DNA from: Jimgerdemannia flammicorona
Taxonomy: Eukaryota; Mucoromycota; Endogonomycetes; Endogonales; Endogonaceae
Reading direction: 5' to 3'
Length of the DNA stretch: 17,689 nucleotides
Assembly (NCBI GenBank): GCA_003990745.1
Contig: RBNI01002732.1
Span: 1-17,689 of the forward strand
Made by a program: the position numbers and the translations under genes. Positions 2,894 through 17,689 of the stretch are shown in pieces (the first letter of the stretch is position 1; every line of letters begins with the position of its first letter). The notes beneath the pieces are model-generated. The model was given only the letters and a program-made list of their open reading frames with translations, was not told where the DNA came from and did no database searches.

Positions 2894-3042
2894 TGTGATG
2901 AGCAATAGAATTACATTGCCAAAATGATAAATTAGCCATATACTATATCTAGTGTACTAAGTAATCAAGACTGCTTTACTGCATCAACTTATATATTTAG
3001 CCAGAGATACCAGAAACAGTATGTTTACCTATACTCTCTAGG

Positions 3043-3096
3043 TATACTATACCCTCAAGATACACTGTACCCTTAAGGTACACTATACTCTTAAGG
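3043..3096 (+). repeat. 18-bp tandem repeat, three units, in LTR
   Basis: Three consecutive 18-base units lie at 3043-3060, 3061-3078 and 3079-3096, of the form TACACTATACCCTTAAGG with a few transitions between copies. They sit about 60 bases upstream of the TATA box, which is where U3 enhancer repeats are usually found. Confidence 0.85.
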
Positions 3097-3106
3097 AATA
3101 CTTACC

Positions 3107-3134
3107 ATAGTTAGCAATCTATAGTTAGCAATAT
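3107..3134 (+). repeat. 14-bp direct repeat, two units, in LTR
   Basis: ATAGTTAGCAATCT (3107-3120) is followed at once by ATAGTTAGCAATAT (3121-3134). The pair lies between the 18-bp repeats and the TATA box and is probably part of the same U3 control region. Confidence 0.85.
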
Positions 3135-3158
3135 AGTAACCAATAGTAACTACAACTG

Positions 3159-3190
3159 TATAAAATACCCCAGAGATAAGAGTGAATAAA
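3159..3190 (+). promoter_or_regulatory. TATA box and AATAAA of element A LTR
   Basis: TATAAAATA at 3159-3167 is a good TATA box, and AATAAA at 3185-3190 could be the polyadenylation signal used in the 3' LTR copy. They are only about 20 bases apart. Transcription would then start at or just after the AATAAA, leaving it in U3 of the 3' copy or making R very short. Confidence 0.5.
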
Positions 3191-3921
3191 CCTTAGTCTG
3201 AAATTTGAATCCAAAGCAAAAGACAAGTCTGTCTATTATACTTCAAGAGGAACTCTACAGCCACTGCTAAGAGATTGTGAGCTTTGCCATTCCATTTCCA
3301 CTCTGGTCTCCTTTCCAATATAAAGCCTTGGTTGCTTGCCAGATAAGCCTGAAGAAATCTGCCAAGTTTAAGGAAGAACTTCACCACCTTTTGAGTAATC
3401 TGCCACTTAAGGAATAAGCTACTGTTTCTGAGTTATCTGCATTCCCAGATAGCCTTAAAGAATCTTGCTACAAGTCAGTCTCTTGATACAACTTCACAGT
3501 AATCTGTTTACATAAACAAAGCTGGTCTTTGTCATAACTTACCAAGAATCTGAGTTATTATTCTCAGAAGAACCTTGCTGATTCAGGAAGAATCTATGAC
3601 ATCTGAGTTACTCAAGTTATCTGAATTATCTACCATCCAAGTTATTAGTTTGTTCTCAGTGAGCCTGATTTAGAAAATCTACTACCAGAATTATTTCCAA
3701 TTGTCACTTAAGAAGAAAACCACTAAATTACCAGATTGCACTATATAAGGAACTGCTTATACTATATATGAAATTCCACCAATTCCCAATTGACCCAAGA
3801 AGGAAACCCATTCACAAATCACTGCTATATCCAGAGAACTGTCTTAATAAAGAAATCTGACAAAATCAACTATTATATCCAGAACTTGACTATTATACTA
3901 CTAAATATCAAAAATATTTTA

Positions 3922-3958
3922 TTACTTTTAACAAAGTAACTGGGGGCTCAAGCTGAAC
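3922..3958 (+). other. LTR/leader junction with hairpin and candidate PBS
   Basis: TTACTTT (3922-3928) and AAAGTAA (3933-3939) form a perfect 7-bp stem around a TAAC loop at the presumed LTR end. TGGGGGCTCAAGCTG starts at 3941, beginning with the TGG complementary to a tRNA CCA end. Its first nine bases match the start of the tRNA-Pro primer site known from murine leukaemia virus. The match then stops, so the primer tRNA is uncertain. Confidence 0.5.
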
Positions 3959-4049
3959 TACATCAATCCCCAATCTTGTAATTTGCCTCTATTGAGCCAG
4001 GCATATTACATTTGTAGACTCAATTGGAAAAGGTTTCAAATTGATATGA

Positions 4050-5970
4050 CTTTTTAGCTCACAAGAACCCACAGTCAAACTGGATATATTTGATACAACA
4101 GCAATCTCTACCACCACAGGAGAACTAGTTATCACCAGTATCTGGACAGAAAGAGAAGTAATTACATCAAGACTTGCTAACTACTCAGCATCAGAAGGAT
4201 CCCAACAAGAACCAGAAGTCAATATAACCAGAGATCCCCAAGCAGATCAATTAAACAATATAGGTAGCCCTGCTAGATACTGTAGAGAACTTGCCAAAGA
4301 ACTAAAAGATCTTATTACACAAGCTCAAAATTGTGTAGCCAGATACCCCACAGCAATCCCACCAATCTCACCTATTGAATCCTTATCACCAGCTCTTGCA
4401 GAACTAAAAGTAGCTCCTACAAGAATACCCAGGCTTATTCTACTTCATCCAAGGCTCTGAACACTATCCTCAAGATACCCAAGCAACTCCATCTTCAGTG
4501 ACAGTTCAGAAAGTGAATCTGAATCAAAATCTGGACCAGAACTAGAATTAGAAGAAAGTGATGATAAAATGGCCACCTTACTGCCAACTTTTGCAAGATA
4601 TTCAGAGGAAGACCTCAGAGAATTCTCTGATGGAATTGAAGGAATTGCAGTCCTGAGAAATCTCTCAGATGAAAGAAAAATTGCCATCTATAAGGCCCAG
4701 CTCAGAGAACCAGCTAGAGGAATTTTCTACTAAACAGCAAATGACCCACATTCAGAACTGGTGAGACAGATACAAGCAGCAGTATCTTATGAGCTAGAAT
4801 ATGTAGCTATGGTCCACTGGCTCATTGAAAAGTATGCAGGAAATGATACCTGTCATAAGGCTCAAGAATCTATCATAGAGATAAAGATGAATCTTGGAGA
4901 ATCACTTAGAGCTTTCTTCACAAGAATTCAGAAGAGAATGCATGCTGCCAGGTTCAATACTACCAACCAGAACATTATAGATCCAATGACCTTCATGAAT
5001 GGGATTCCTCCAAATATTGCTCAGCATGTCTGTATCCTAGGTATCAGAAGGTCTGAAGAGTAAGTAGATACAGCCCAAGGATTTTTTGATATCAGACAAG
5101 GAACTACCTAGAGTGACTATAGCAAAAAGGATGATAAGGAAGATATCCTGGTCAAAGCTCTACAAGGACTCCTCCAAGGACAAGAGAGATCTGAAGAAAG
5201 AAGGCCAGCTAAAGAAAGAAAGAAGAATAAGAGTGAAATTCAAGACCTCAGCTCCAAGTTGGACTGATTGATTGGACAGATTGAAAAACTCACCACATGT
5301 AAAAATCAGAGCTACCAAGACTACAGAGGATACCCACCATAGAGGAGTCAAGGTTATCCATCCAGAGATAACAGAAGCTATCAGTAAGAAGAAAGAAGAT
5401 ATTCTGTCCAAGACAGAGCCCAAGTCTAATGCTTCTACTGTGGATAATTCAGATACTATGCCACTAAATGTGACAACAAAAGAAGTGACCAAAGGGATTC
5501 AGAACTACTAAACCAAAGGAATGATACTCAGTACAAGAAGGCCAAAGTCCATCCTGTTGAAGACTTTGAAGAAGCAAGCAATAGTGAAGACTATAGACCT
5601 GTACCCTATCAAGGTTACCACTCAGAAAAAGTTTACTCAGCAGAAAAAAAGATGTGATCTGTAGAAAGGCTATTCAGGAATATCAGCTAAAGAATTATTC
5701 AAGAAGAAGATAAAGAACATAAAGAGAAGTAAGTGAAAACACCTCCCTAGACTCTCTTACCTTTTGTCTCTGAGAGAAATGAGTTGCTACTAGAGGATGA
5801 AGAAATGGAATAAGAAGAACAAAAAACTACTGCCCCAAAACCCAAGAAGAAGTACACCCCAAAGACCATGCTCAGAGACATCTATAATAATGCCTGGTAG
5901 AAGATTCAAGAGGCCAAGATAGAAGTCCCTCTCCTGCAGTTCCTGCAACTGATACCAGCTGGAGTTCAAA
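4050..5970 (+). pseudogene. gag: Gag of element A, interrupted by stops
   Basis: Gag is the structural protein that packages element RNA. It reads in one frame (frame 3) from about 4050 to about 5970 with in-frame stops, including 4458 and those after 4730, 5060 and 5108. The N-terminal third is Ser/Glu-rich around 4495-4560. A helical capsid-like part (about 4570-5063) includes AVSYELEYVAMVHWLIEKYA. A charged Lys/Glu-rich stretch follows (5110-5270), then a zinc knuckle at about 5430-5471. The knuckle keeps all three cysteines (CFYCG and ATKC), but the histidine position is Tyr and a stop falls inside it. The last part (about 5850-5970) has RDIYNNAW and KIEVPLLQFLQLIPA, which resemble the segment just before protease in many Ty3/gypsy polyproteins. 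No convincing start codon is seen; the true start may have been lost. Confidence 0.85.
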
Positions 5971-6474
5971 ACAATTGCTGAGAACCACCAGGTCCAGCAC
6001 TGGTCAAGTTCCCATCCCATAGTAAGAGCTAGTCCCCACATCTATTCAGACTATAGAGAGATATATCAGTATCTACTTATATGGAGATATTGGAGGACAA
6101 AAGGTGAAAATCCTCATAGACATAAGAGTAGCTATCTGTGTCATTGCTAAACAATTCCTGGACACCCTCCAATGGCTCATTGATAGACCATCCAACCTCA
6201 GTATCATAGTAGCAGATGGAGCCTAAACTCAACCCCTTGGAGAAGTATAAAACATTACTATCTCCCTGGGACACATTTAGTTCTCTATCCCAAAAGCTAT
6301 TATCACTAAAGCTGTCACCTATGATATGATCCTTGGTACCAACTGGATGAAGGAAATGAATGTAGTTGTTAATATCAGTCAACAAGTACTCAAGTTTGAC
6401 TACTGAGGCAAAAAGTATAGAGTTAAGGTGACCAGCTATGAACAATCAAAGAAGAAGAAGAAGGTTACCATCTA
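5970..6474 (+). pseudogene. pol: Retroviral-type aspartic protease of element A
   Basis: This segment (frame 2, one step back from gag) would be the aspartic protease that cuts the Gag-Pol polyprotein. GDIGGQKVKILID lies at about 6083-6121 where the flap-forming strand and catalytic loop belong, and ILGTNWM (about 6332-6352) matches the C-terminal ILG motif of gypsy proteases. The catalytic Asp-Thr/Ser-Gly triad instead reads Asp-Ile-Arg, explained by one C-to-T and one G-to-A change, so the enzyme would be dead. Several stops interrupt the domain (for example after 6020). The gag-to-protease step could be a natural -1 frameshift site or a small deletion; no clear slippery heptamer plus stem was identified. 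Confidence 0.85.
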
Positions 6475-7410
6475 GGAAGAATATACCAGTAGTGAAGAAT
6501 CTACTATAGAAGAGGAAGAAGAATCTGAAGATAGAAGTAATCCCAGACTCAATCTCCAAATTAACCTAGTGGATGATAGACCAGAAGATAATGTCTGGGT
6601 CAAGAACACTGTCCCCATTACTATCAGAGCTATTGCAGAAGAAATCAAAGGATGTCCCACCTGCCTTAAGAGACACAAGTGCTCTGAGCACTCCTCCAAG
6701 ATCATTGGGATAAGGAATTCGCCTGACACAGCCTGCTCAGAGTGCAGAAAGAAGAAGAGAAATGCAGACATGTTCCAGAAACACCTGCAACTGAAGCAGC
6801 AGAAGTATAAGCAATTTGGGGCCAAGAATTATCTGAGGAAAAAGAAGTTCCTGACCAAGAAGTTCCTGAACAAGAAGCACCTAAAGAAGAAGAGGTCCCT
6901 GAACTCATTCCCTGGGATAACCCTTGCTGGACACTACCTGAAGACAATGACCCTTGGGATATAGAAGAAGGATCCAGTATAATCCCCATTATTCCCAAGA
7001 AAAAAACTCACCAAGAGAGGGCATTTCAGCTAGGAAGATGTCCACACCAAATTGTCTTTCACTCTCTCTGAGACTACTGCTACCAGTGCCATCTACTAGA
7101 TCAACAGGAGAGACAGAGACTCCAGAGACCAGAACTCCTGAACACAGTTGCACAGTCAACTATCTTCCAAGAAGTTACTACTAAGTTGCAAAGCTGATTC
7201 AGAAGACAAGGTCTCTTCACCTGAACAGAAGTATACCTCTTGTCCACTCTTCTCCCAACTTATGACTAAGATGAGTACCGATTTCCAAGGCAATAAGAAA
7301 TCAACAACCAGGAACATCATTTCCAAGCAATGAGATATTGTAATCATGAAAGACACTCAGACTGCTAAGACTGCAACATCAGAAGATTCACCTCAGTCAT
7401 GATGTTGCAA
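6475..7410 (+). pseudogene. Acidic and Cys/His-rich pol region of unknown role
   Basis: Between protease and dUTPase lies about 900 bases of coding-like sequence with no family that I recognise. It reads in frame 2 to about 6755 and in frame 1 after that. It opens with a Ser/Glu-rich acidic stretch (6475-6540), then a cysteine-dense part with KGCPTCLKRHKCSEH (about 6644-6690) and a second cysteine pair near 6738-6750. A short repeat follows (EVPDQEVPEQEAPKEEEVPE, about 6844-6903), then a hydrophobic acidic segment with two tryptophans. After that come two more Cys/His clusters, at about 7039-7110 (RCPHQIVFH then CYQC) and about 7330-7380 (RYCNHERHSDC then DC). The spacing suggests zinc binding, but this is inference. 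Stops of all three kinds occur. Confidence 0.6.
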
Positions 7411-7418
7411 TCCATACC

Positions 7419-8146
7419 TTGAAGAGAGGAGACAACAGAGACCAGATCCAAAAAAGTCAGACCAAGAAGCCAGGAAAAAGGACCCTCAAGATCTATGATT
7501 TAGAAGAAGATATCCTAGCTCTCACCAGACATACAACCTGCCAAGAATGGGTAGAGAATGCCACCAACTTCATGGAAGCCCTAGACCCTACAGGAAAAAG
7601 AGAAATAAACTATCTCTGAGACCTCTCCACTGGAGCCAGATGGCCACACCTCAACCTCAGAGCTTGGAGGCTCTCTACTAGTGAAGCTTCAGCCCTAGGA
7701 CAGCCTGAACTTAGCAAGAATGTTGCCCAGTAGACCCTGCTGTACCCTAAGGCCAAATCCCTGACCAAAGCCCATCTAGAGGATATAGAATATGATCTTC
7801 ACAGTCTGGAGGATGAATCTATCAAGTTTGAAAAAATATTCATGATCAGAACTAGACTAGTTATGCAGCCATCTCAAGGAGCTTACATCCATCTAACCTC
7901 AAGGTCTGGACTTACCAGACAAGGAATAACTATAGAAGGAGAAACTATTGACCCAGGATATACAGGCAAAATCAAGATCATTCTATACAATAGTAGTACA
8001 GAATGATACTGAATCATTAGAGGACAGAAGATTGCCCAAGCAGTCTTCATGAAGGTCAAGGTCCTACAACTACAAGAAGTCTCTGAACTGACCAAAGGAA
8101 CAAGACAAGCCAAAGGATTTGGAAGTTCAGACAAGAAGAAAGTACA
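7419..8146 (+). pseudogene. dUTPase domain in pol of element A
   Basis: dUTPase hydrolyses dUTP to dUMP and pyrophosphate, keeping uracil out of newly made cDNA. In frame 3 the five motifs of the trimeric all-beta dUTPase family appear in order with normal spacing. Motif 1 is EYDLHS (YDL at 7791-7799). Motif 2 is SRSGLT (7899-7916). Motif 3 is ETIDPGYTGKIKIILYN (from 7941; the uracil-loop Asp is at 7950-7952 and the Tyr at 7959-7961). Motif 4 is RGQKIAQA (from 8019). The glycine-rich motif 5 is TRQAKGFGSS (8100-8129). The core is about 120 residues, the usual length. The segment 7419-7770 in the same frame is coding-like but not assigned. Two TGA stops (8004 and 8010) lie between motifs 3 and 4, others lie upstream, and the motif 5 Arg-Gly is Arg-Gln here. 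The motifs are otherwise well kept. Confidence 0.9.
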
Positions 8147-8520
8147 TCTCCTTCAAGTCAACCATCTCAAGAGGAATGTCCCCCAGAAAGTGTACCACCA
8201 ACCAGTCAAACTATACAAGAATCTCATTCTGGAGCCTGGAGAACAAACCATCTTCAAAATATTTGTACCACCTGATCCCAGAAACCATTTCTTTGAAACC
8301 AATGAAGATATCCTGTACCTAGATATGGAAGGACATACATTTCCTGACAAGATGTATCCAGTACACTCCTGAGTAACCAACCAAAGTTGAGAAACCATCA
8401 TCTTGCCAAAAGGAACCATTGTAGGGCATCTGGTGCCTTTTTTCAACCAAATTCATAGAGAAGTTTATGAACTAAACTTATTGAGAAATGACAAAAGGTC
8501 CCAGAAGAAAGGAAAGGCCC
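8147..8520 (+). pseudogene. Beta-rich linker between dUTPase and RT
   Basis: In the dUTPase frame (frame 3) the reading continues for about 120 residues after motif 5 with two or three stops. It alternates hydrophobic and polar residues, includes LEPGEQTIFKIFVPPDP (about 8235-8285), and ends with ILPKGTIVGHLVPFF (about 8400-8445). This pattern, ending in a Pro/Lys-Gly-Thr strand, resembles the stretch that precedes RT in many Ty3/gypsy polyproteins. No catalytic motif is seen. The frame then moves back by one base near 8500-8530 into the RT frame. Confidence 0.55.
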
Positions 8521-9370
8521 CTCTGCGACCCAGGAGACAGTGAAGCCTTCCACTAACATTGGAGAAGAATTAATATCTCAACAATGGCAACAACTAGTAG
8601 AACTCCTCAATAAATATCTAGATATCTTCACTACTAATTATGGCAATTTGTCATACAACCCATCATACCACTACAGCATAAATACAGAAAATGCAATACC
8701 CATCTAACAGAAATCCTATAGAATACCCCATCACTTTAAAACATTCAAAAAGGAGCATATTCAAGAACTCTTAGATAATGGAGTCATCTAACTCTCTATC
8801 AGCCCCTGGGTCAGTCCTATAATTATTGTTCCAAAGAAAGGAGAATGGAGACTCTGTGTAGATTACAAGAAACTCAATTCAGTCACCTAAAAGGATACCT
8901 ATCCTCTGCCCAGAATTGATGACCTTTTGTATCAGTTACAAGATGCCAGATACTTCAGCAGTATGGACCTTTTTGTAGGATTTCATGAGATCTCCATGAA
9001 TCTAAAAAACATTCAAAAGACAGCCTTCCTTGCTCTAGGAAAACTATTTAAATATCTCTGAATGGTCTTTGGACTTTGTAATGCACCCCCCACCTTTCAA
9101 AGGATGATAAATTCAGTCTATGTCCCCTTAATCCACTACTGCCTGATTGTATATATGGATGATTCCAACATCTATACAGTAAATTTTGAAGAACACCTGT
9201 ACTACCTAGAGGAATTCTTCAAACTCACTCATAAGAACTATCTGAGACTCAATACAAGAAAATGCTACTTTGGGAAACAGAAACTTGAATTCCTTGGATT
9301 TATAGTTTCAAAAGAAGGAACTTATACAGACTCAAAGAAAACCAAAAAGATCAACAATTAGCCAGTACCC
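8521..9370 (+). pseudogene. pol: Reverse transcriptase of element A
   Basis: RT copies element RNA into DNA. In frame 2, from about 8521, the order of motifs is that of Ty3/gypsy RT. First comes the N-terminal lead HFKTFKKEHIQELLDNGVI, then SPWVSPIIIVPKKGEWRLCV, then SSMDLFVGFHEI carrying the first catalytic Asp. Next are MVFGLCNAPPTFQRMI (9062 onward) and the YMDD box at 9152-9163, then LEFLGFIVSKEG. The catalytic aspartates are still present, but stops at several places (for example in VI*LS, VT*KD and just before MVFG) make it non-functional. Confidence 0.93.
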
Positions 9371-9945
9371 AAGACCCCAAAGGAAATATTATCATTCCTA
9401 ATGCTGGTATCCTACTACAGAAGGTTTATTAAGGACTTTGCCCAAATCACTACTCCAATCTGGATCCTTCTCAAGAAAGGAGTGCTATTCAAATATACAG
9501 AATCACAAGAAAAAGCCTTCAAAGAACTCAAAAACTGTATAACTATAGTACTAATCCTTGTACACTCCAATCTACAGAAGCCATTCATCTTGTATATAAA
9601 TACTTCCAAAGATGGCCTAGGAGCAGTTCTAGTCAAGGAAGGACTTGACTAATAATACTATATGATAGCTTAAGTAAGTTGAGCTACCAATCAGCAGCAG
9701 ATGAACTATGGTAGCACCAAATTAGAATGCCTTGTAGTTATATGAGTGGTCACTCTATTCAAGCATTATTTTATCAGAAAAAGGTTCACCCTAATCACAG
9801 ATCATACAGCCCTCAAATGGCTATTCAACTATAAGAAATCTACTAGAATCCTAGCCCACTGAATCCTTATCCTTTAGGATTACAAAATCACCATCATCCA
9901 CAAAGCAGAGAAAGCTTACAACAATGTTGATGTACTTTCTCACTA
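9371..9945 (+). pseudogene. pol: RNase H of element A
   Basis: RNase H degrades the RNA strand during reverse transcription. It follows RT in the same frame (frame 2). The connection segment SYYRRFIKDFAQITTPI (about 9407-9457) is typical of Ty3/gypsy RT-RNase H. The first catalytic Asp, expected in the L-x-T-D-A-S-type strand, is Asn here (9599-9601), which fits a G-to-A change. The Glu in KLECLVV and the Asp in TLITDHTALKWL are present. The end HKAEKAYNNVDVLSH (about 9898-9945) matches the usual HxxGxxNxxADxLSR closing motif in altered form. Several stops lie between 9653 and 9880. Confidence 0.88.
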
Positions 9946-10560
9946 TTCCCAATAAACCAGAAGAAGGGTGTCCCAAGGAACTACATCTTAAAGAAAGCTT
10001 CTCAGACTATCAAGGTACAAGAAGATCTCATCTGAAAGGAATATCAGAAAGCCTATCAAGGACAAGCAAATATAGAAGAAAAATTACAAACAATATACCA
10101 ACATTGGCCCAATCTCAGAACACAAGTCTGAAACATACTCAAGAAATTTGATATCTGCCAAAAGTACTAAGGAAGGAAGAACTACCAAGCACTACTGCAA
10201 CTAATTACACTACCAGACAATATCTTTTAGAGATGGAGAGAAGATGTAATTGAACCCCTATCAGTTATACCAAGAAGAAACAAATATATTTTTATATTTA
10301 TAGAACATCTAACTAAGTGGCCCAAGGTTTTCCCATTGGAAATTACAGATGCCCTAACTATTTTAGGTCTCCTCTATGGACTTATACTCAGATATGGACC
10401 CCCAGAAGAACTCATCTCTGATCAAGGTACAGAATTCATCAATAACATAATTACAAGTTATATCTAAATTTACAGATCCACCTTAAACAGACCACATTAT
10501 ACTACTCTCAGACCAATGGTATGACAGAAAGAATGAACCAGACTATTAAGAAAGGACTTG
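9946..10560 (+). pseudogene. pol: Integrase of element A, C-terminally truncated
   Basis: Integrase inserts the cDNA into the genome. It reads in frame 1 from about 9940, then in frame 3 from about 10455. The zinc-binding N-terminus ends in FDICQKY, where the second cysteine of the C-x2-C pair has become Tyr. The DDE core is recognisable: Asp at 10243-10245 in WREDVIEPL, then NKYIFIFIEHLTKWPKVFPL, Asp at 10420-10422 in LISDQGTEF, and Glu at 10527-10529 in QTNGMTERMNQ. The sequence stops resembling integrase soon after about 10560, so the C-terminal part and any chromodomain are lost. Stops and the frame change make it inactive. Confidence 0.9.
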
Positions 10561-10620
10561 CCCAAGTCAATCCTACCAATGATGATATCAAAGATACAGT
10601 CTTCAATCTGACATGGAGTA
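10560..10620. other. Junction of two oppositely oriented gypsy elements
   Basis: Left of this stretch the plus strand reads as integrase of element A; right of it the minus strand reads as the gag/protease border of element B. No LTR or poly(A) lies between. The exact breakpoint cannot be fixed, because the minus-strand frame of B runs on through the stretch as coding-like sequence, while the plus strand keeps a short open frame with no integrase likeness. Confidence 0.7.
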
Positions 10621-11975
10621 TAAGCAGATGTCTTGCACTGATCTTTGGATTCTTCATCTGAGTTTTCAGATTCTTCCTGTGCATTGTGAGCTTCTACAAT
10701 CTTGTACTCTTGATTCTTGGCAGTAGTTGCAAGTCCTACTCTCAACTGCTGTCTGAAGGTAGGGACTTCAGCTAGCTATCCAAAGGTAGCATTGATCTTC
10801 TGTTCCTTGAGGTCCTTGTAGATATCATACTGGTGGATCTTGGTCTTGCACAGCTTCTGTTCCTTCTTGCTTTCACTTTCTCCTGAAACTGGAGTAGTGC
10901 CTTCAATGATTTGGTGAGCAGCTTCATCTAACTCTATGTCTTGATCAATTCCTCAGATTGAGTCTTACTTTGAATAGTGACAGTTGGAGTCTTCTTTGGT
11001 CTTCCAACTGGCTTGCTGTTGCTCTTCTTATCATAGGGCTTGGACCAGGTTCTGGTACCTTCAGTAGCAGGGTAGAATTCAAGCTCCTCATAGTATTCTT
11101 TATCATCAGTGTCACCAATCTCCTCAATGACTACTGCATTGGTTTGTTCTCTGGTTTTGCTAGCATTGCTTGGTTGGGCTTTGTGTCTTGTTTCAGTTAT
11201 ACAACTCTTTGCATAGTGGCCTTCTTCTCCATATCTGAAGTATGTGATATTGCATTCTTCTGTAGCAGCTGCAAATCTCTGCACTAGTCTCCTGTTAGTG
11301 CTTCAGACTTCTCTAACAACATCACTAAGGTGTGCAGTCATCTCAGCGAACTGTTTGATGAGTTCCTCCACTGGGTCAGCTTTGTTTACAACTGTGGCAG
11401 GTATAATACTAGTTGGTTTTGATGGCTCTATCTTGATACTAGTTATTTTCTCCATTGAGTGTTCGGCAGGATGTCTGGCAGTCCAATATCTCTATACAAA
11501 GACTACTTTCTGATCAAGGGTCAGTGCAGCTGGGGTAGACCAGATTGCTAGGGCAATTTCAGGGTGAACTCCTTTGAGGAAGGTTGAATCTGCTATTTTT
11601 TCCTTGAGGGCATCATCATAGCCAGCCAAGACAATCTGGTGGCAGATTTGGGTATAGAATTAGTTGGGATCTTTACTAAGTCCCTGGCAGAGAGTATTGA
11701 GTTGATCCTTGAGAGCTTGCTTGATCTCTTCAGTATAGTATATTGTTCTGAGGAAGGCCTTCATATTGGCAAGTTTGGCTACACTATTATTGGCAATAGT
11801 GATTGTATTGAACTTATCTCTAACAGGTCCTCTGAGGCTGACTGATAGAAGAGCCAATTGTGCATCCACACCAAGGGCTTATATAGCAGCAAATTGTTCA
11901 AAGTCTTCGATAAAGGTCAGGATTGACTATCTTTCACCAGTAACATTCAGGTGACACAAGACTCAGATAACACTT
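10575..11975 (-). pseudogene. gag: Gag and protease lead-in of gypsy element B
   Basis: This is part of a second Ty3/gypsy element on the minus strand, truncated at both ends. From about 11960 downward it reads ILTFIEDFEQFAA and LALLSVSLRGPVRDKFNT, the typical Gag capsid pattern. Next come LKDQLNTLCQGLSKDPN, IVLAGYDDALKEKIADSTFL and VHPEIALAI. A zinc knuckle follows (about 11240-11195): YFRYGEEGHYAKSC, with Tyr at the first two cysteine positions. One frame runs from 11960 to about 10934. The reading then steps back by one base and continues through YDIYKDLKEQKINATFG and QEESENSDEESKDQCKTSAY to about 10620, which resembles the pre-protease segment of fungal gypsy polyproteins. It differs in sequence from Gag of element A, so it is a different family. 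Stops are scattered throughout. Confidence 0.85.
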
Positions 11976-12096
11976 TTTACTATGTTTTTAGTGTCTGATG
12001 ACTATCAACATACATGGCAATGATTGAACTGATGAGCATACTGGCCAGGGGGGTGGCGGTGCCTTTGGCTGGCAGTAGGTGGAGAGGAGGGGAGAT

Positions 12097-13926
12097 GGTT
12101 TGGGGATGCCAGGGGCCTCAATGGCTAGCTGAGGCCCTGGTGATAGAGGGAGGGGTGGTCTGAGGCAGAGAGGAGAGGAGAGGTTGACCTTTGCTGATAA
12201 GGTCAGAATGGAGAAGATGGCCTCTGGTCTAGATAGTTGGCTGGGCTTGGGGAAGGTATCGACAGATGCTACTGGGGGACAGGGAGGTGTGCCCAGGGGA
12301 GTTTCAGATGGTAGGAGAGGAGCTAGAGTAGGGGCTGGAGATGTGACTGTTGATGGAGCTGTAACTAGAGTTCTGGCAAAAAATCCAGATGTGATGGTAG
12401 TTGACAATTCAGGACAGGAGGTAGGTACAAGGCCTGGAGACCTGGCAGATGGGGTGACAGGAATGGTGTCAGCCCTGTTACTCAAGAAGTCGAGGTCAGA
12501 ATTCACAGTCACAATGAGTTTCTGGGGCTTGGCAGTAATAGTGAGAATGATCTTGGGGCTGGTGGCACAGGAGGCAAAGGGAGCAGCTTCAGTGAAGTTT
12601 CTGAAGGGGAAGGAAGGGGTCAAGGTGGGGTTCAAGAAGGAAGAAGCCTTGCTGGCAGTCTTGGAGAAGGGGGTGACAGTTGGTGGAGTTATGGTCCCTA
12701 TGGCCAGGTGCATACACTGGGACCCTCAAGTGGTGTAGTTGATGGTGTTAGATCTCCCTACAGTGTCAAAGGAGAGGACCAGAGAGTTAGTTGTGGAGGT
12801 GATCAAGGAATATGGCGAGATTGTGGATGTTGGGTTCAAGGTCTGGGAGGGTATGGAGCTCTAGACTAGTGACATCAATGTCAGGGTGTGGCTGGCTGGA
12901 AAGGAGAATATGGGGAAGTCAAGGGACTGGCCAGCAACACTGAGGTAGGGACTGGTGGAGTGCAAGGTCACAAGGGTGAAGGAGACCCAAGAGGAGGAGG
13001 AAGATCTATTGGAGGCTATGGAGAATCTGGAAAGGGTGGTTGTAAGGAGGAGATTGGCCTGGAAGGAGTTTGAGGCCAGGATGGTGGTGGGGGAGATGGA
13101 TGAGAAGAGAGTCTGGATGGAGAGGGGGGCCTGGGAGAAGATGCAGGGGAGAAAAGTCCAGATGGAGCTGCTGGCGAAGTTGGGTGAGAGTAGAGCTGGT
13201 GGAAGCTCAGAGGAGGGGGGGGTGGGATTGCAGGAGAGTGCCTGGGCTGTGGGGGGCGAAAGGGCCCAGGGTGGGACTTGGGATGGATTGGAGGAGGAGA
13301 GGGGAGGCAATATAGAGGCAGATGCGGAAATGAGTGAAGGAGTATGCCCTCAGTATAGTGTCCCAGGTGGAGCTGAGGGGGAGGAGGAGCTGCTGGATAT
13401 GACAGATGAGGAGTGGGATGAGTCAGTGAGGAGGAGTGCTCTGGTGGACCCTGAGGTGGATGGGGGGCAAATCGCCCAGGGTGCGGTAGAGGCAGTGGAT
13501 GAGGAGAAGTGGATGTGGAAGACCCTGGAAGGAGTAGTGGCAGAAGAGCTGGGGGGAGAGGACTTCAGGGTTATGGAAGAGAGGCATTGGGAGGAGATCC
13601 TGTGGGGGGAGGAGGTGCTGAGGAAGATGAGGAACAAGATCCTAGCTGTTCTCCTGGAGTCAGTTGAATATCAAGTCAATGATCAGAGAGAAGAGGAACT
13701 TAGGAGGATTGTAAGTGACTGGGCATTATACTTGTGGAACTCAAGGAAGAGACTGGAGAAGTGGTGCGCAGTCTGCCTGGACTTTAGGTCAGAGATAGAG
13801 GAAGTGGATGGGGTAGAATGTCAGGAAATCTTGGAGGCACTGGATGCTCAGGCTAATACAGAGGGTGACTTGGAAGCTGAATGGCACTTGGATCTGGCTG
13901 GGGATAAGATGAGCATAGAATACTAG
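12097..13926 (+). pseudogene. LINE ORF1, RNA-binding type, interrupted
   Basis: ORF1 would be the nucleic-acid-binding partner of ORF2. It reads in frame 1 from about 12097 (an ATG in a Gly/Arg-rich lead-in) to the TAG at 13924-13926. In-frame stops lie just before 12184 and at 12736, 12856 and 12946. The first part contains LTFADKVRMEKM. The middle (about 12680-12990) has LMVLDLPTVSKERTREL, VEVIKEYGEIVDVGFKVWEG and VRVWLAGKENMG, a beta-alpha-beta pattern like the RRM-type domain of other LINE ORF1 proteins. After that comes a long Glu-rich, charged, probably coiled-coil region (12955-13650). The C-terminus has WCAVC, but no clear CCHC knuckle was found. The RRM assignment is inference from pattern; the ORF1 role is supported by position directly ahead of ORF2. 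Confidence 0.75.
13213..13275 (+). other. G-run cluster inside ORF1, possible G-quadruplex
   Basis: Long G-runs follow one another here: an eight-G run then GGG at about 13215-13226, a six-G run at about 13251-13256, then GGG and GGG-T-GGG at about 13261-13275. The loop between the first two runs and the six-G run is longer than the usual 7 bases, so only part of the cluster meets a strict G4 rule. Confidence 0.4.
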
Positions 13927-13957
13927 GCTGGGGTCTCTATTGCAACATTCCTTCAAT

Positions 13958-14690
13958 ATGAACTGTATAACTAGGATATTCTCTTTGAATGTAAATGGGT
14001 TATAGGGGGTGGCTAGAAGGAAGTATATATTTGGATGGCTTAAGGAACTGGATGCGGACCTCTCCTTGTTGTAGGATGTTCATTATGAGGTGGATGTGAA
14101 TTTACAGGATTAGACTAAGGAATGGGGGGGGACAGTGGTATAGAGAGAGAAAGTGGGTATTCTCATTTGGAAAGGGATGGGAGACATTGAGAACATTGGA
14201 CATTGGGGGTCTTGGGTAGTGTGGGGAGTGTGGAAGAGGCCTGGATGGGACTCACTGATAGTTGGGTCTTATTATTGCCCAGCTGAGAGAGGGAAAAGGG
14301 TGGATTGACTTCACAGGTTGAAAGAAGCCAGTGTCTTGAGTGAGGTTGGGTTGGACTGCCTGGGGGGTGACTTCAATATGGTATGTGATAAGGAGATAGA
14401 TAGGACAGATAGAGAGAGAGGCATGTGGAGTGAGAGTGGTGGGCTGAGTGACTGGTTGGAGACAGAGAGGTTGAGTTCATTAGTGGACTCAGGAAAACAG
14501 TTTTGAGACAATCGGCAGGTGTACACCCACTGGGCAGCAGGGCTGGGCTCCAGGATTGACTGGGTTTTGACAGCAGAGTGTTGGGGGGCAGATGTCTGGA
14601 TGGCACTGGAGGTAGTTTGGTGTCTGTGGTCTGATCACTGGGGGCTACTAGGAGGGGGGAGGTTTGGGAGAAGTGAGGATGGGTCTGGAT
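13958..14690 (+). other. ORF2 apurinic-type endonuclease domain
   Basis: The domain follows the exonuclease/endonuclease/phosphatase fold of LINEs. It begins FSLNVNGL (metal-ligand Asn at 13988-13990). The expected Gln-Glu of the next motif is altered: the codons read stop-Asp near 14054. Further motifs in order are VGSYYCPAERGKR (about 14258), GGDFNMV (Asp at 14369-14371, Asn at 14375-14377), SRIDWVL (Asp at 14558-14560) and SDHWGLL (Asp 14633-14635, His 14636-14638). The catalytic His and its partner Asp are thus still present, while the catalytic Glu appears lost. Confidence 0.85.
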
Positions 14691-15249
14691 ATTGGAGACT
14701 AAATTCTTCCTTATTGGAGGATAGGGCTTTGTGGGAGGGTTGGGAAATAAAGGTTATCTGGAATATTGGGAGGTGGCAGGAATGAGGCCTGGGGATTGGG
14801 GACCACTGGAGGAGACTGAAGGCGAATGCTCAGGGGTATTGGAGGGAAGCTAGGAAAGGAAGGTGTGCTCAGCAACAGCAGCAGGTACTGTAGACCTCAC
14901 AGCATCTGGCAGCACTCATGGAGAGATGGACAGGTATGCTAGAAGATGGGAAGATGAATGACTGGCATATTGTGAGAATCCAAAAGGAGGTGGAGGAGCT
15001 GAAAGGAGTGTTAAGAAGTAAGGAGGAGGTGAGGCTGTAGGGGATGGTGGCCCGACTGCAGTGGCAGGGGCTTGAGGAGGGAGAGAGGCCTACTAGGTTT
15101 TTGACATAGTTGTTACAAGCCAGACAGATGAAGCAGCAGTGGGAGGGAGTTCTGGATGTAAATAGTGAGCTGGTGGTAGAGACTTCAGTAATTCTGGGTT
15201 TACTGAGATTCTGTTGGGAGAATTTATAGAGTGAGGAAGGAGGAGTGGA

Positions 15250-16240
15250 TGCCTTAGATATTGAAAGGTAGCTGGGGGGTTGGCACCCAAACCCTGCATT
15301 GGGCCTAGGGGCTTTGGGGGACCCAGTGAGTGGAGAGGAAATCTGCAAGGTTGTGGCCTCGATGAGTAAGGGGATGGCTCTAGGGAAGGATGGACTTCTC
15401 TGGAATTTTTGGAAGAAGATGGCTGGGGTGGGTGAGGTGCTAGAGGAAATGACCACTATGTGTGATGAGGTTCTTCAGTCTGGTACTTGGATTGGGGGCC
15501 AGCACTTAGGGCTAGTCTCCTTGATCTACAAGAATAAGAGGAGGCAGGAAGATTGGAAGAACTGGTGGCCAATCATGCTACTTAATATGGACTGCAAACT
15601 AGTGATGAAGATCTTGGTGATGAGGCTGTAAGGAATTACTCAGCAAGTGCTTAGTGTGGAGCAGCATGGGTTTGTGAGTGGCTGGTTGATTCATGATGGG
15701 ACAGTGTGAGTCCATGGAGTGATTGAAGGTGCCCAGGCTATAGGGGTAGATGGATGGTTGGTATTCCTGGATCAGGAGAAGACATATGATAGAGTGTGGA
15801 GGATCTGGCTAGAAGGAGTGCTGAAATGGGTGAGTATTCCCCCAGAGTTCCAAGGTTCATTGGTCAGCCTCTTAGAGGATAGTCAGGCTGCATTGATCAT
15901 CAATGGCCACAGGGGGGTGACCTTTCCCCTAGGTCGTGGGGTGCCACAAGGGGACCCCTTGTCACCCATATTGTATGCCCTCTCCCTGGAGCCCCTACTG
16001 GACAGGATTTGGCATCAGATTGGGGGTTTAGATATTCTAGGGATTAATTGGAAGGTGGGGGCCTTTGCTGATGATATGGTGGTCGGGCTGGACTCCTTGA
16101 TGGATGTGGGAGAGTTACAGAGGTCTGTGAAATGGTATGAGAGAGGATCTGATGCTAAACTAAACTGGTACAAATGTGAGACTCTGGTGCTGGGTACTAG
16201 AATTGTTGGTAGCGATGTGATTGGGACAGTGGTGCTGGCT
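15250..16240 (+). other. ORF2 reverse transcriptase domain
   Basis: RT motifs appear in order in frame 2: MALGKDGLLWNFWKKM (about 15373-15420); QHLGLVSLIYKNKRRQEDWK (about 15500-15560); QHGFVSGW; FLDQEKTYDRVW (first catalytic Asp at 15770-15772); GRGVPQGDPLSPILYALSLE (15932 onward); and the FADD box at 16064-16075 in GAFADDMVVG. The FADD form and the GxPQGDPLSP motif are standard for non-LTR RT. About five stops interrupt it before 15720, but 15719-16240 is one open stretch with all the core catalytic residues intact. Confidence 0.93.
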
Positions 16241-17571
16241 GGCAAACCAGTACATTATTGGAGATCTACTTCTCAGTGTTCAGATCTCTTCTTTCCTGTG
16301 CATGGTGGAACCAATAACTTCTGGAGTGGGGAAATGTTCTGCTGCGATGGGGAGGTTGGTATATATCCCTAGCTGGAAGGGTGATGGTACTGAATGTGTA
16401 TTGGATGCTGAAGCTGTAGTATGTAGGGTACTATTTGGATTTCCCACCTTGGGTGGTCAGGGGGCTGTTAAAGATGGCGAGGTCATGGATCTGAAGAGGG
16501 CGGCAAAGCCAGGTGGGGTAGGAGGTGCTCACACTGCCTGTGGAAAGAGGTGGGCTGGGTTTAGTTGACTTTGCTAAGTGGCTTCAATGTTTGTGAGCTT
16601 AGTGGTTGAGGAGGGTGAGTGAGCTGAGGGGTTGGGAGTGGGTGCTACTCATGTAGAGGGTGTGGGAGGTTAGGTATTCCCCTCATGGTGATTCTGGTGA
16701 CTTGCTTGCAATGGTGGCTATGGAGGAGAGCAGGAGGATGCAGTTTACAGGCTTCTGGTGGGGGGTGGTGGATGGCACTAAGAAAATTGGACTTTGGTGG
16801 TGAGGTGATGAAGCCAAGGAGGATTGGGGACCACAGATGTGGTGTTGGGACAGGCTTCTACTGGGTGGTGTTCTGGTGGAGGAGTTCCAGCTTGGCGAGG
16901 GCATAGAGTGTCTACAGGGCTTGGGTGGAGACCTATAGCCCAAAGCCTGGCAGAGGGTTGGAATTGGTGAGGAGTGGGATTGGAATGGACTCTGGCTTTG
17001 GAGCAAACAGGTGAGGCAGTGGCTGCCCCCCAAGTTCTGGGTAGTGTGGTGGCAAGTCCTATGGCAGAATGTGATGTTGAACTATTGGTCTGGGCACTTG
17101 GTGGATGGTGGCATATTTGAGTGTGAGGAATGTTTCAATGTTGGTCAGGAGGGAGGAGTGGTACAAATATCTGAACATTGGCTTAGTGAGTGCGAGGTTT
17201 TGGAGGAGTTTTGGAGATGTATCATAGACCGGCTAGGGCTGTGTGCCTTAGAGGGAGGGGAAGGGGGGAGATGGGGAGAGCTCCACCAGAGACTGATTGG
17301 TGGGGTTAGGAATGAATGGCTGACTCTTGGCTGGGCTCTGGCTATGTGGGTTGGATTAGCTAGACATTGAGTTCATGTATTTGAGGAGGGACAGCAGGTT
17401 GGGGTTGGGAACAAAGTAGCATGTTGGGAATGGTTATTATTGGACATTTTGAATGGCTGGTGGCGAGGGTGGGGGCCAGGTGGGGGGAATCACAGGGGTT
17501 TGGTACAGTGTATCTCCTGGAAGAGTAGTGGGAGGATTCAGGTGGTGGGTGACTGGATTGTGTGTGAGTAG
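16240..17571 (+). other. ORF2 thumb and C-terminal CCHC finger
   Basis: In frame 1 the post-RT segment of LINEs can be followed: ISLAGRVMVLNVYWMLKL (about 16360-16410), then LTLPVERGGLGLVDFAKW (about 16530-16580), then PKFWVVWWQVLWQNVMLNYW (about 17030). It ends in a zinc-finger-like motif with Cys at 17122-17124 and 17131-17133, His at 17176-17178 and Cys at 17191-17193. The spacing C-x2-C-x14-H-x4-C is close to the C-terminal motif known from many LINE ORF2 proteins. All four ligands are preserved. The stops here include TAG, TGA and TAA. Confidence 0.85.
17467..17498 (+). other. Putative G-quadruplex near LINE 3' end
   Basis: Four G-runs (GGG at 17467-17469, GGGGG at 17471-17475, GGGGGG at 17482-17487, GGGG at 17495-17498) are separated by loops of 1, 6 and 7 bases, which meets the usual G4 folding rule. 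It lies at the very end of ORF2, about 190 bases from the window end. Confidence 0.65.
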
Positions 17572-17689
17572 GGGGAGGTTGAGAGAGGAAGATTGGGTCC
17601 ACGGGGCATTGGTTGAGGGCTTGGAGTGACATTGTATTGTTAAAATTATAGACAGCAGTAATAAAGGGCAGTCCAAGTGACTATAGAAA
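17572..17689 (+). promoter_or_regulatory. LINE 3' UTR with polyadenylation signal
   Basis: After the last ORF2 stop about 118 bases remain. AATAAA at 17660-17665 is followed about 21-24 bases later by the terminal GAAA at the window edge, the normal distance from signal to cleavage site. The poly(A) tail and any target-site duplication would lie just beyond the window. Confidence 0.65.

Follow-up and report, generated by a model that had tools for sequence, protein, structure and literature searches.

Layout of the element

The window, by which we mean the whole 17,689-nt stretch of DNA that was analysed, carries on its plus strand a dead, truncated member of an abundant Ty3/gypsy LTR family, which we refer to as family A (Table 1). 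Loci in the same genome are given L-numbers (e.g. L049) and proteins from searches P-numbers; P0001, P0002 and P0003 are homologues of the family A protein from another source. The protease, reverse transcriptase (RT), RNase H and integrase are present in Ty3/gypsy order on one strand, the integrase by a match below its cut-off (24.3 bits versus 32.6). As the first-pass annotation of this DNA had claimed, a dUTPase domain lies between the protease and RT of a plus-strand gypsy element, the protease being recognised by decayed motifs around 6110-6400 and RT by PF00078. The matches to RT and RNase H, both on the same strand and downstream of the dUTPase, are above the Pfam cut-off. No Pfam match was obtained for the protease piece of the window; in sibling L050, the protease shows DTGA as its active site. 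Likewise, the gag piece put to Pfam gave no gag family above the cut-off, and the P0001 counterpart of the segment that follows the dUTPase gave no Pfam match. The annotation had also described the sequence on both sides of the dUTPase as coding-like and in the same frame. This was true of segment 8139-8540, whereas in the window the protease is in another frame, and RT reads in the -1 frame with respect to the dUTPase in all four copies compared, with no gaps between the copies.

Table 1. Features of the family A copy in the window.
Feature	Position	Strand	Basis
5' LTR region (outer edge approximate)	2894..3937	+	aligned with the end repeat of sibling L049
gag pieces	4461..5063	+	open pieces; sibling homology from 4550; gag by position and by eye
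Decayed aspartic protease	6080..6400	+	ILIDIR..MILGTNWM in the window; DTGA in sibling L050
Protease-dUTPase linker with Cys-rich stretches, broken into several frames here	6430..7733	+	open pieces
dUTPase domain, interrupted by TGA codons at 8004 and 8010	7752..8129	+	PF00692 on 7734-8006 and 8013-8372; motifs
Conserved segment 3' of the dUTPase, same frame	8139..8540	+	common to P0001-P0003
Hyperconserved block where the dUTPase frame gives way to the -1 RT frame	8500..8562	+	copy comparison
TGA closing the dUTPase frame	8541..8543	+	same in four copies; P0001-P0003 stop no more than a residue away
Reverse transcriptase in pieces, -1 relative to the dUTPase	8890..9361	+	PF00078 on 9062-9361; tblastn of 8891-9058 to other elements
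RNase H part	9362..9652	+	PF17919
Integrase part, truncated around 10580	10231..10580	+	PF00665, E 3.7e-5, below the curated cut-off

The LTRs of the family are seen in siblings: the ends of L049 repeat over at least 1.1 kb (88.7% identity), those of L050 over 0.87 kb (87.1%). The copy in the window retains only the 5' side, and no repeat pair was found there; its homology to family A, judged against three copies, stops around 10580, at the start of another repeat. As to a chromodomain after the integrase, the mark of a chromovirus, the two 3' pieces of L049 put to Pfam gave no match, and the window copy is truncated before that point. The remainder of the window is occupied by other sequences. 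Positions 10574-11930 carry, on the minus strand, gag-like zinc-knuckle sequence of another element, and homology to L011 and L027 begins where that to family A ends. The region 12000-17600 is GC-rich with a strong GC skew and contains a non-LTR-like RT (PF00078 at 15710-16372, E 9e-17).

The dUTPase domain

The five dUTPase motifs that had been reported were all found in order, in one frame and at the places given: YDL at 7791, SRSGL at 7899, IDPGYTG at 7947, GQKIAQ at 8022 and GFGSS at 8115. We take these to be the catalytic motifs of trimeric dUTPases, whose letters bind and cleave dUTP. The profile search and the structure prediction that the first-pass annotation had recommended both bore the domain out. 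Firstly, PF00692 matched both open pieces, with E 9.2e-11 and 42.1 bits for 7734-8006 (curated cut-off 22) and with E 1.5e-4 for 8013-8372, whose score of 22.0 bits is exactly the curated cut-off of 22. Secondly, in the AlphaFold model of P0001, a protein that scores 95.3 bits against PF00692, the dUTPase residues 131-260 are confident, with blocks of 72-95 pLDDT in a whole model of only 52.9, and the model matches dUTPases in the PDB. In addition, the stretch 4764-5684 of sibling L049, where the frame is open, matched 78 distinct PDB sequences (best E 4.7e-22); the 60 matches listed are dUTPases. The motif letters are intact in the window and in P0001, and P0001-P0003 retain the dUTPase at 70-74% identity. 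Since PF00692 matches both open pieces and the motifs lie in one frame, the domain is real: the window is confirmed to carry a true trimeric-type dUTPase domain. A chance series of motifs is ruled out by the PF00692 matches. Besides the two TGA codons that split the domain in frame, the dUTPase frame of the window contains further stops at 7617, 7731, 8370 and 8388.

The dUTPase in sibling copies

A first DNA search, with the dUTPase stretch as query, found siblings of 86-88% identity (best 40 of 1048 candidates, the window itself excepted), which carry the dUTPase by selection. Because such a query is biased toward dUTPase carriers, siblings were searched again with the RT stretch (best 40 of 995 candidates), and the expected dUTPase place was fetched for 20 of the 39 other copies. 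The dUTPase was present at this place in 19 of the 20, and the last one offers 99 bases before its contig ends. In this comparison, which had been proposed from the outset, the dUTPase between protease and RT proves to be a fixed part of family A. The family is old and its copies are decayed: in the dUTPase frame, each of the 21 copies aligned over 7419-8500 has two stops or more (14 of them share the stop at codon 8010), and the motif letters are partly lost in the RT-chosen copies.

Sister dUTPase lineages

The matches obtained when the genome contigs were searched with PF00692 were all above the cut-off (best 150 of 5391 candidates), and the window was not among the matches listed. None of the 28 loci fetched from them is similar at the DNA level to the internal region of the window's element, the best being about 30% identical to the window's dUTPase. 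Two further dUTPase-bearing gypsy groups were distinguished in the same genome, B1 (L010, L014 and L018) and B2 (L004 and L011), which are separate in a tree of 63 domains. The Pfam order in these B lineages is zinc knuckle-dUTPase-protease-RT, parts of which are seen as dUTPase followed by protease in L018 and L021, gag-dUTPase-protease in L004, dUTPase-protease-RT in L011, and zinc knuckle-dUTPase in L010 and L014. In this one fungal genome, three or more divergent gypsy lineages have a dUTPase, which occupies two positions, after the protease and before it. The places expected from RT could be fetched for 17 of 20 B1 copies (three lay beyond the contig), and 16 of these carry the dUTPase. 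The other one, L166, has gag-leader-like sequence in its place. Two motifs of the B1 dUTPase at 4756-5139 of L010 are unusual, motif 2 reading RSSLAL and motif 4 GFCIAQ, yet the domain evolved under constraint. A viral scan kept 80 loci.

Origin of the domain

No host dUTPase stood out when the contigs were searched with a cellular query: among the best 150 of 4922 candidates, identity did not exceed 50%, and the highest-ranking matches were places of family B2. The canonical motif 5 pattern had no match in the genome contigs. GH72, UDG and thymidylate synthase were not found in these contigs either, whereas ribosomal protein L3 was; the contigs thus look gene-incomplete, and the negative result for a host dUTPase says little. 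The L3 protein scores best against fungal PDB chains (513 down to 484 bits over the first 15 rows, 14 of them fungal), the first animal chain reaching 476 bits; as far as this single ribosomal protein goes, the host is a fungus.

The domain phylogeny that the first-pass annotation had suggested gave a divided answer. In the tree of 63 domains, from which the partial rows P0002, P0003 and P0138 were dropped, family A groups with bacterial-type rows (97/87), apart from the eukaryotic and other gypsy dUTPases, but the alternative of placing it among the eukaryotes and elements is not rejected (p 0.49). With the bacterial rows included, the test rejects a single clade of A, B1 and B2 (p 0.0067) and also a clade that joins A and B to 21 other elements (p 0.0047). 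It does not reject A with B1 (p 0.357), B1 with B2 (p 0.44) or B with the elements (p 0.062), and A with B2 is borderline (p 0.051). After removal of the 24 bacterial-type rows and of one plant row, neither a clade of A and B (p 0.545) nor one of A, B and the elements (p 0.179) was rejected.

On the one hand, the two rejected clades and the grouping of A with bacterial-type rows, together with the fact that the best organism-named matches outside the family are bacterial, make it conceivable, though rather doubtful, that this dUTPase came from bacteria, apart from the eukaryote-type dUTPases of other gypsy lineages. On the other hand, A lacks a two-residue insert that is present in most of the aligned bacterial rows, and the collection of those rows by similarity to A biases the tree. 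Because the result hinges on rows chosen in this way, we do not claim a bacterial origin; whether gypsy lineages captured their dUTPases separately depends on the outgroups included. A single origin of all gypsy dUTPases considered here is rejected with the bacterial rows and not rejected without them. The position of family A in the RT tree, at the end of a long branch (1.95), is unsure.

Decay and selection

Nearly all changes between the two LTRs of a copy are transitions: the ratios of transitions to transversions are 95:9 in L049 and 106:5 in L050, both of family A, and 21:1, 39:0, 36:0 and 45:1 in L010, L016, L022 and L025, respectively. CpG is at 0.05 of the expected number over the window and at 0.05-0.49 in the loci measured (L010-L051), and the 1082 bases of 7419-8500 contain no CpG where 47 are expected. 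Since an exon of ribosomal protein L3 has a normal CpG content (1.07 of expected) as against 0.05 in the window, CpG loss goes with repeats. The LTR changes and the CpG loss in repeats look as they would after RIP or methylation decay, and mutations that are nearly all transitions, together with the near absence of CpG, point to cytosine deamination or RIP of chromosomal DNA as the cause of the decay of the copies. A dUTPase, which the first-pass annotation had suggested might serve against a dUTP-rich or uracil-generating host environment, would not prevent either process.

As transition bias by itself lowers dN/dS, neutral decay was simulated for the dUTPase-chosen set of B1 copies. In that set (12 copies), dN/dS of the dUTPase measured against L010 is 0.084, versus 0.60-0.68 in the neutral simulations, whose 1% points are 0.21-0.29. 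The value is 0.102 in the RT-chosen B1 copies (the 14 of 16 with the full stretch, stops being present in 9 of the 14), and that of the B1 RT is 0.078 (9 copies). The dUTPase is therefore under purifying selection in sister family B1. For B2, the pairwise median dN/dS values, which stand without a neutral control, are 0.229 for the dUTPase, 0.215 for the protease and 0.125 for RT. In family A itself, selection on the dUTPase left no clear trace: variants common to at least three copies number 25, 20 and 30 at codon positions 1, 2 and 3. What supports a function here is the intact motifs and the homologues P0001-P0003.

The junction between the dUTPase and RT frames

The dUTPase frame closes at the same TGA in the window, L049, L050 and L051, and P0001, P0002 and P0003 end within a residue of that position. 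The bases around it are exceptionally well conserved. In 5649 gapless columns of the four copies, the longest invariant run is 37 bases (8517-8553; the next is 23), and the most invariant 40-column window is 8517-8556 (0.975; the next is 0.925). A 63-base junction query found 39 other places at 98-100% identity among the matches listed (best 40 of 749), 12 of them at 100% over 61-63 bases, whereas a control stretch in RT found no other place above 95% among the matches listed (best 40 of 597); the control is a single stretch, and both were measured against the window copy. In eight RT-chosen copies compared with the window, 18 of 483 aligned block sites differ, versus 66.7 expected at 13.8%; local alignment trimmed some block ends, so that the true count is somewhat above 18. 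The CpG in the block is one of three left in 3901-10580 and is kept in 8 of 12 copies seen. The open-access papers listed by the literature searches that brought up dUTPase in fungal and rotifer gypsy elements included none on a conserved junction block, which was not among the terms searched.

Our guess is that the block combines a recoding signal with double coding. The dull alternative is that mutable sites are scarce in it. No slippery site was identified at the junction, and none of four RNA folds was more stable than shuffled sequences (z -0.05, 0.41, -0.52 and -0.38). We think it unlikely, although worth setting out, that 8500-8562 is an unrecognised signal for frameshifting or bypass that sets the ratio of protease plus dUTPase to RT, in an element whose dUTPase may have been captured separately, possibly from a bacterial-type source. 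On this reading, the block is constrained at the nucleotide level and survives a decay that erased almost every surrounding CpG. The junction block is a separate lead to how elements dose their enzymes and why a short stretch withstands the decay around it.

Proposed function of the dUTPase

dUTPase has a role in non-dividing cells (PMC4531489). We consider it highly probable that family A is a gypsy family with a fixed dUTPase, and that in its ancestors this enzyme kept uracil out of the cDNA. The order in family A is gag, protease, linker and dUTPase, followed in the -1 frame by RT, RNase H and integrase. In active ancestors, the most likely task of the dUTPase was to convert dUTP to dUMP close to the particle in which reverse transcription took place, and RT would thereby have been spared uracil in the cDNA when host dUTPase is low, as may be the case in resting hyphae or spores. 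If RT was reached by recoding, the dUTPase, being encoded upstream of the frame change, would have been made in excess over RT, like the retroviral dUTPase of the pro frame. What the sequences show is the domain, where it lies, its occurrence throughout the family, the frame relation and the decay of the copies; the enzyme activity, the recoding and the benefit to the element are what we infer.

It is improbable that the family A domain is no longer an enzyme and persists in a structural or regulatory role within the particle. The lack of a selection signal in family A and the unusual letters of B1 in motifs 2 and 4 would fit such a role; against it, the motif letters for dUTP binding and cleavage, which are the catalytic ones, are intact in the window and in P0001. 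A one-time insertion of a host dUTPase gene fragment into a single gypsy copy is next to impossible. The window copy, isolated and broken, cannot by itself tell, but the sibling test contradicts such an event and P0001-P0003, from another source, have the same domain and flanks. Family A as a gypsy family with a dUTPase of its own remains our preferred reading.

Relation to known elements

The first-pass annotation knew of no well-described fungal gypsy element with a dUTPase. This claim to novelty fails, because the arrangement is already known: fungal gypsy elements with dUTPase have been reported from Phanerochaete, Tuber and Postia (PMC2864245). Closest in description is PosPlaTy3-5 of Postia placenta, a fungal Ty3/gypsy element with dUTPase between protease and RT (PMC2864245), which resembles family A by description. 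The Phanerochaete chrysosporium elements (2008) and Tmt1 of Tuber melanosporum (2008) are, by description and as cited in PMC2864245, fungal LTR retrotransposons with a dUTPase. A dUTPase between protease and RT is also reported in rotifer and planarian elements (PMC5408684 and PMC6431247); among these, Juno, Vesta and TelKA of bdelloid rotifers are LTR retrotransposons which, compared with family A by description, differ in belonging to animal lineages with extra ORF3s (PMC5408684). Betaretroviruses (PMC4531489) share the order NC-dUTPase-protease with B1 and B2, and encode the dUTPase ahead of the RT frame as family A does, but their dUTPase, made across frames in fusion with NC as a trans-frame product, is placed before the protease, whereas that of family A comes after it.

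The known pattern is widened here to three or more gypsy lineages and two dUTPase positions, with selection in at least one lineage, so that the question of why retroelements carry a dUTPase becomes testable outside vertebrates. The dUTPase changes its place among gypsy elements, as Novikova and colleagues wrote of Postia (PMC2864245). In a scan by simple motifs of 144 proteins (137 search matches and 7 from this genome), 143 had a dUTPase, in orders such as protease-dUTPase-RT-RNase H (9 proteins), dUTPase-protease (7) and RNase H-dUTPase (5). One protein, P0018 from Salix suchowensis, contains four tandem dUTPase domains, and in P0014 from Zingiber officinale the dUTPase follows a stretch that, to our eye, looks like the end of a caulimovirid RT.
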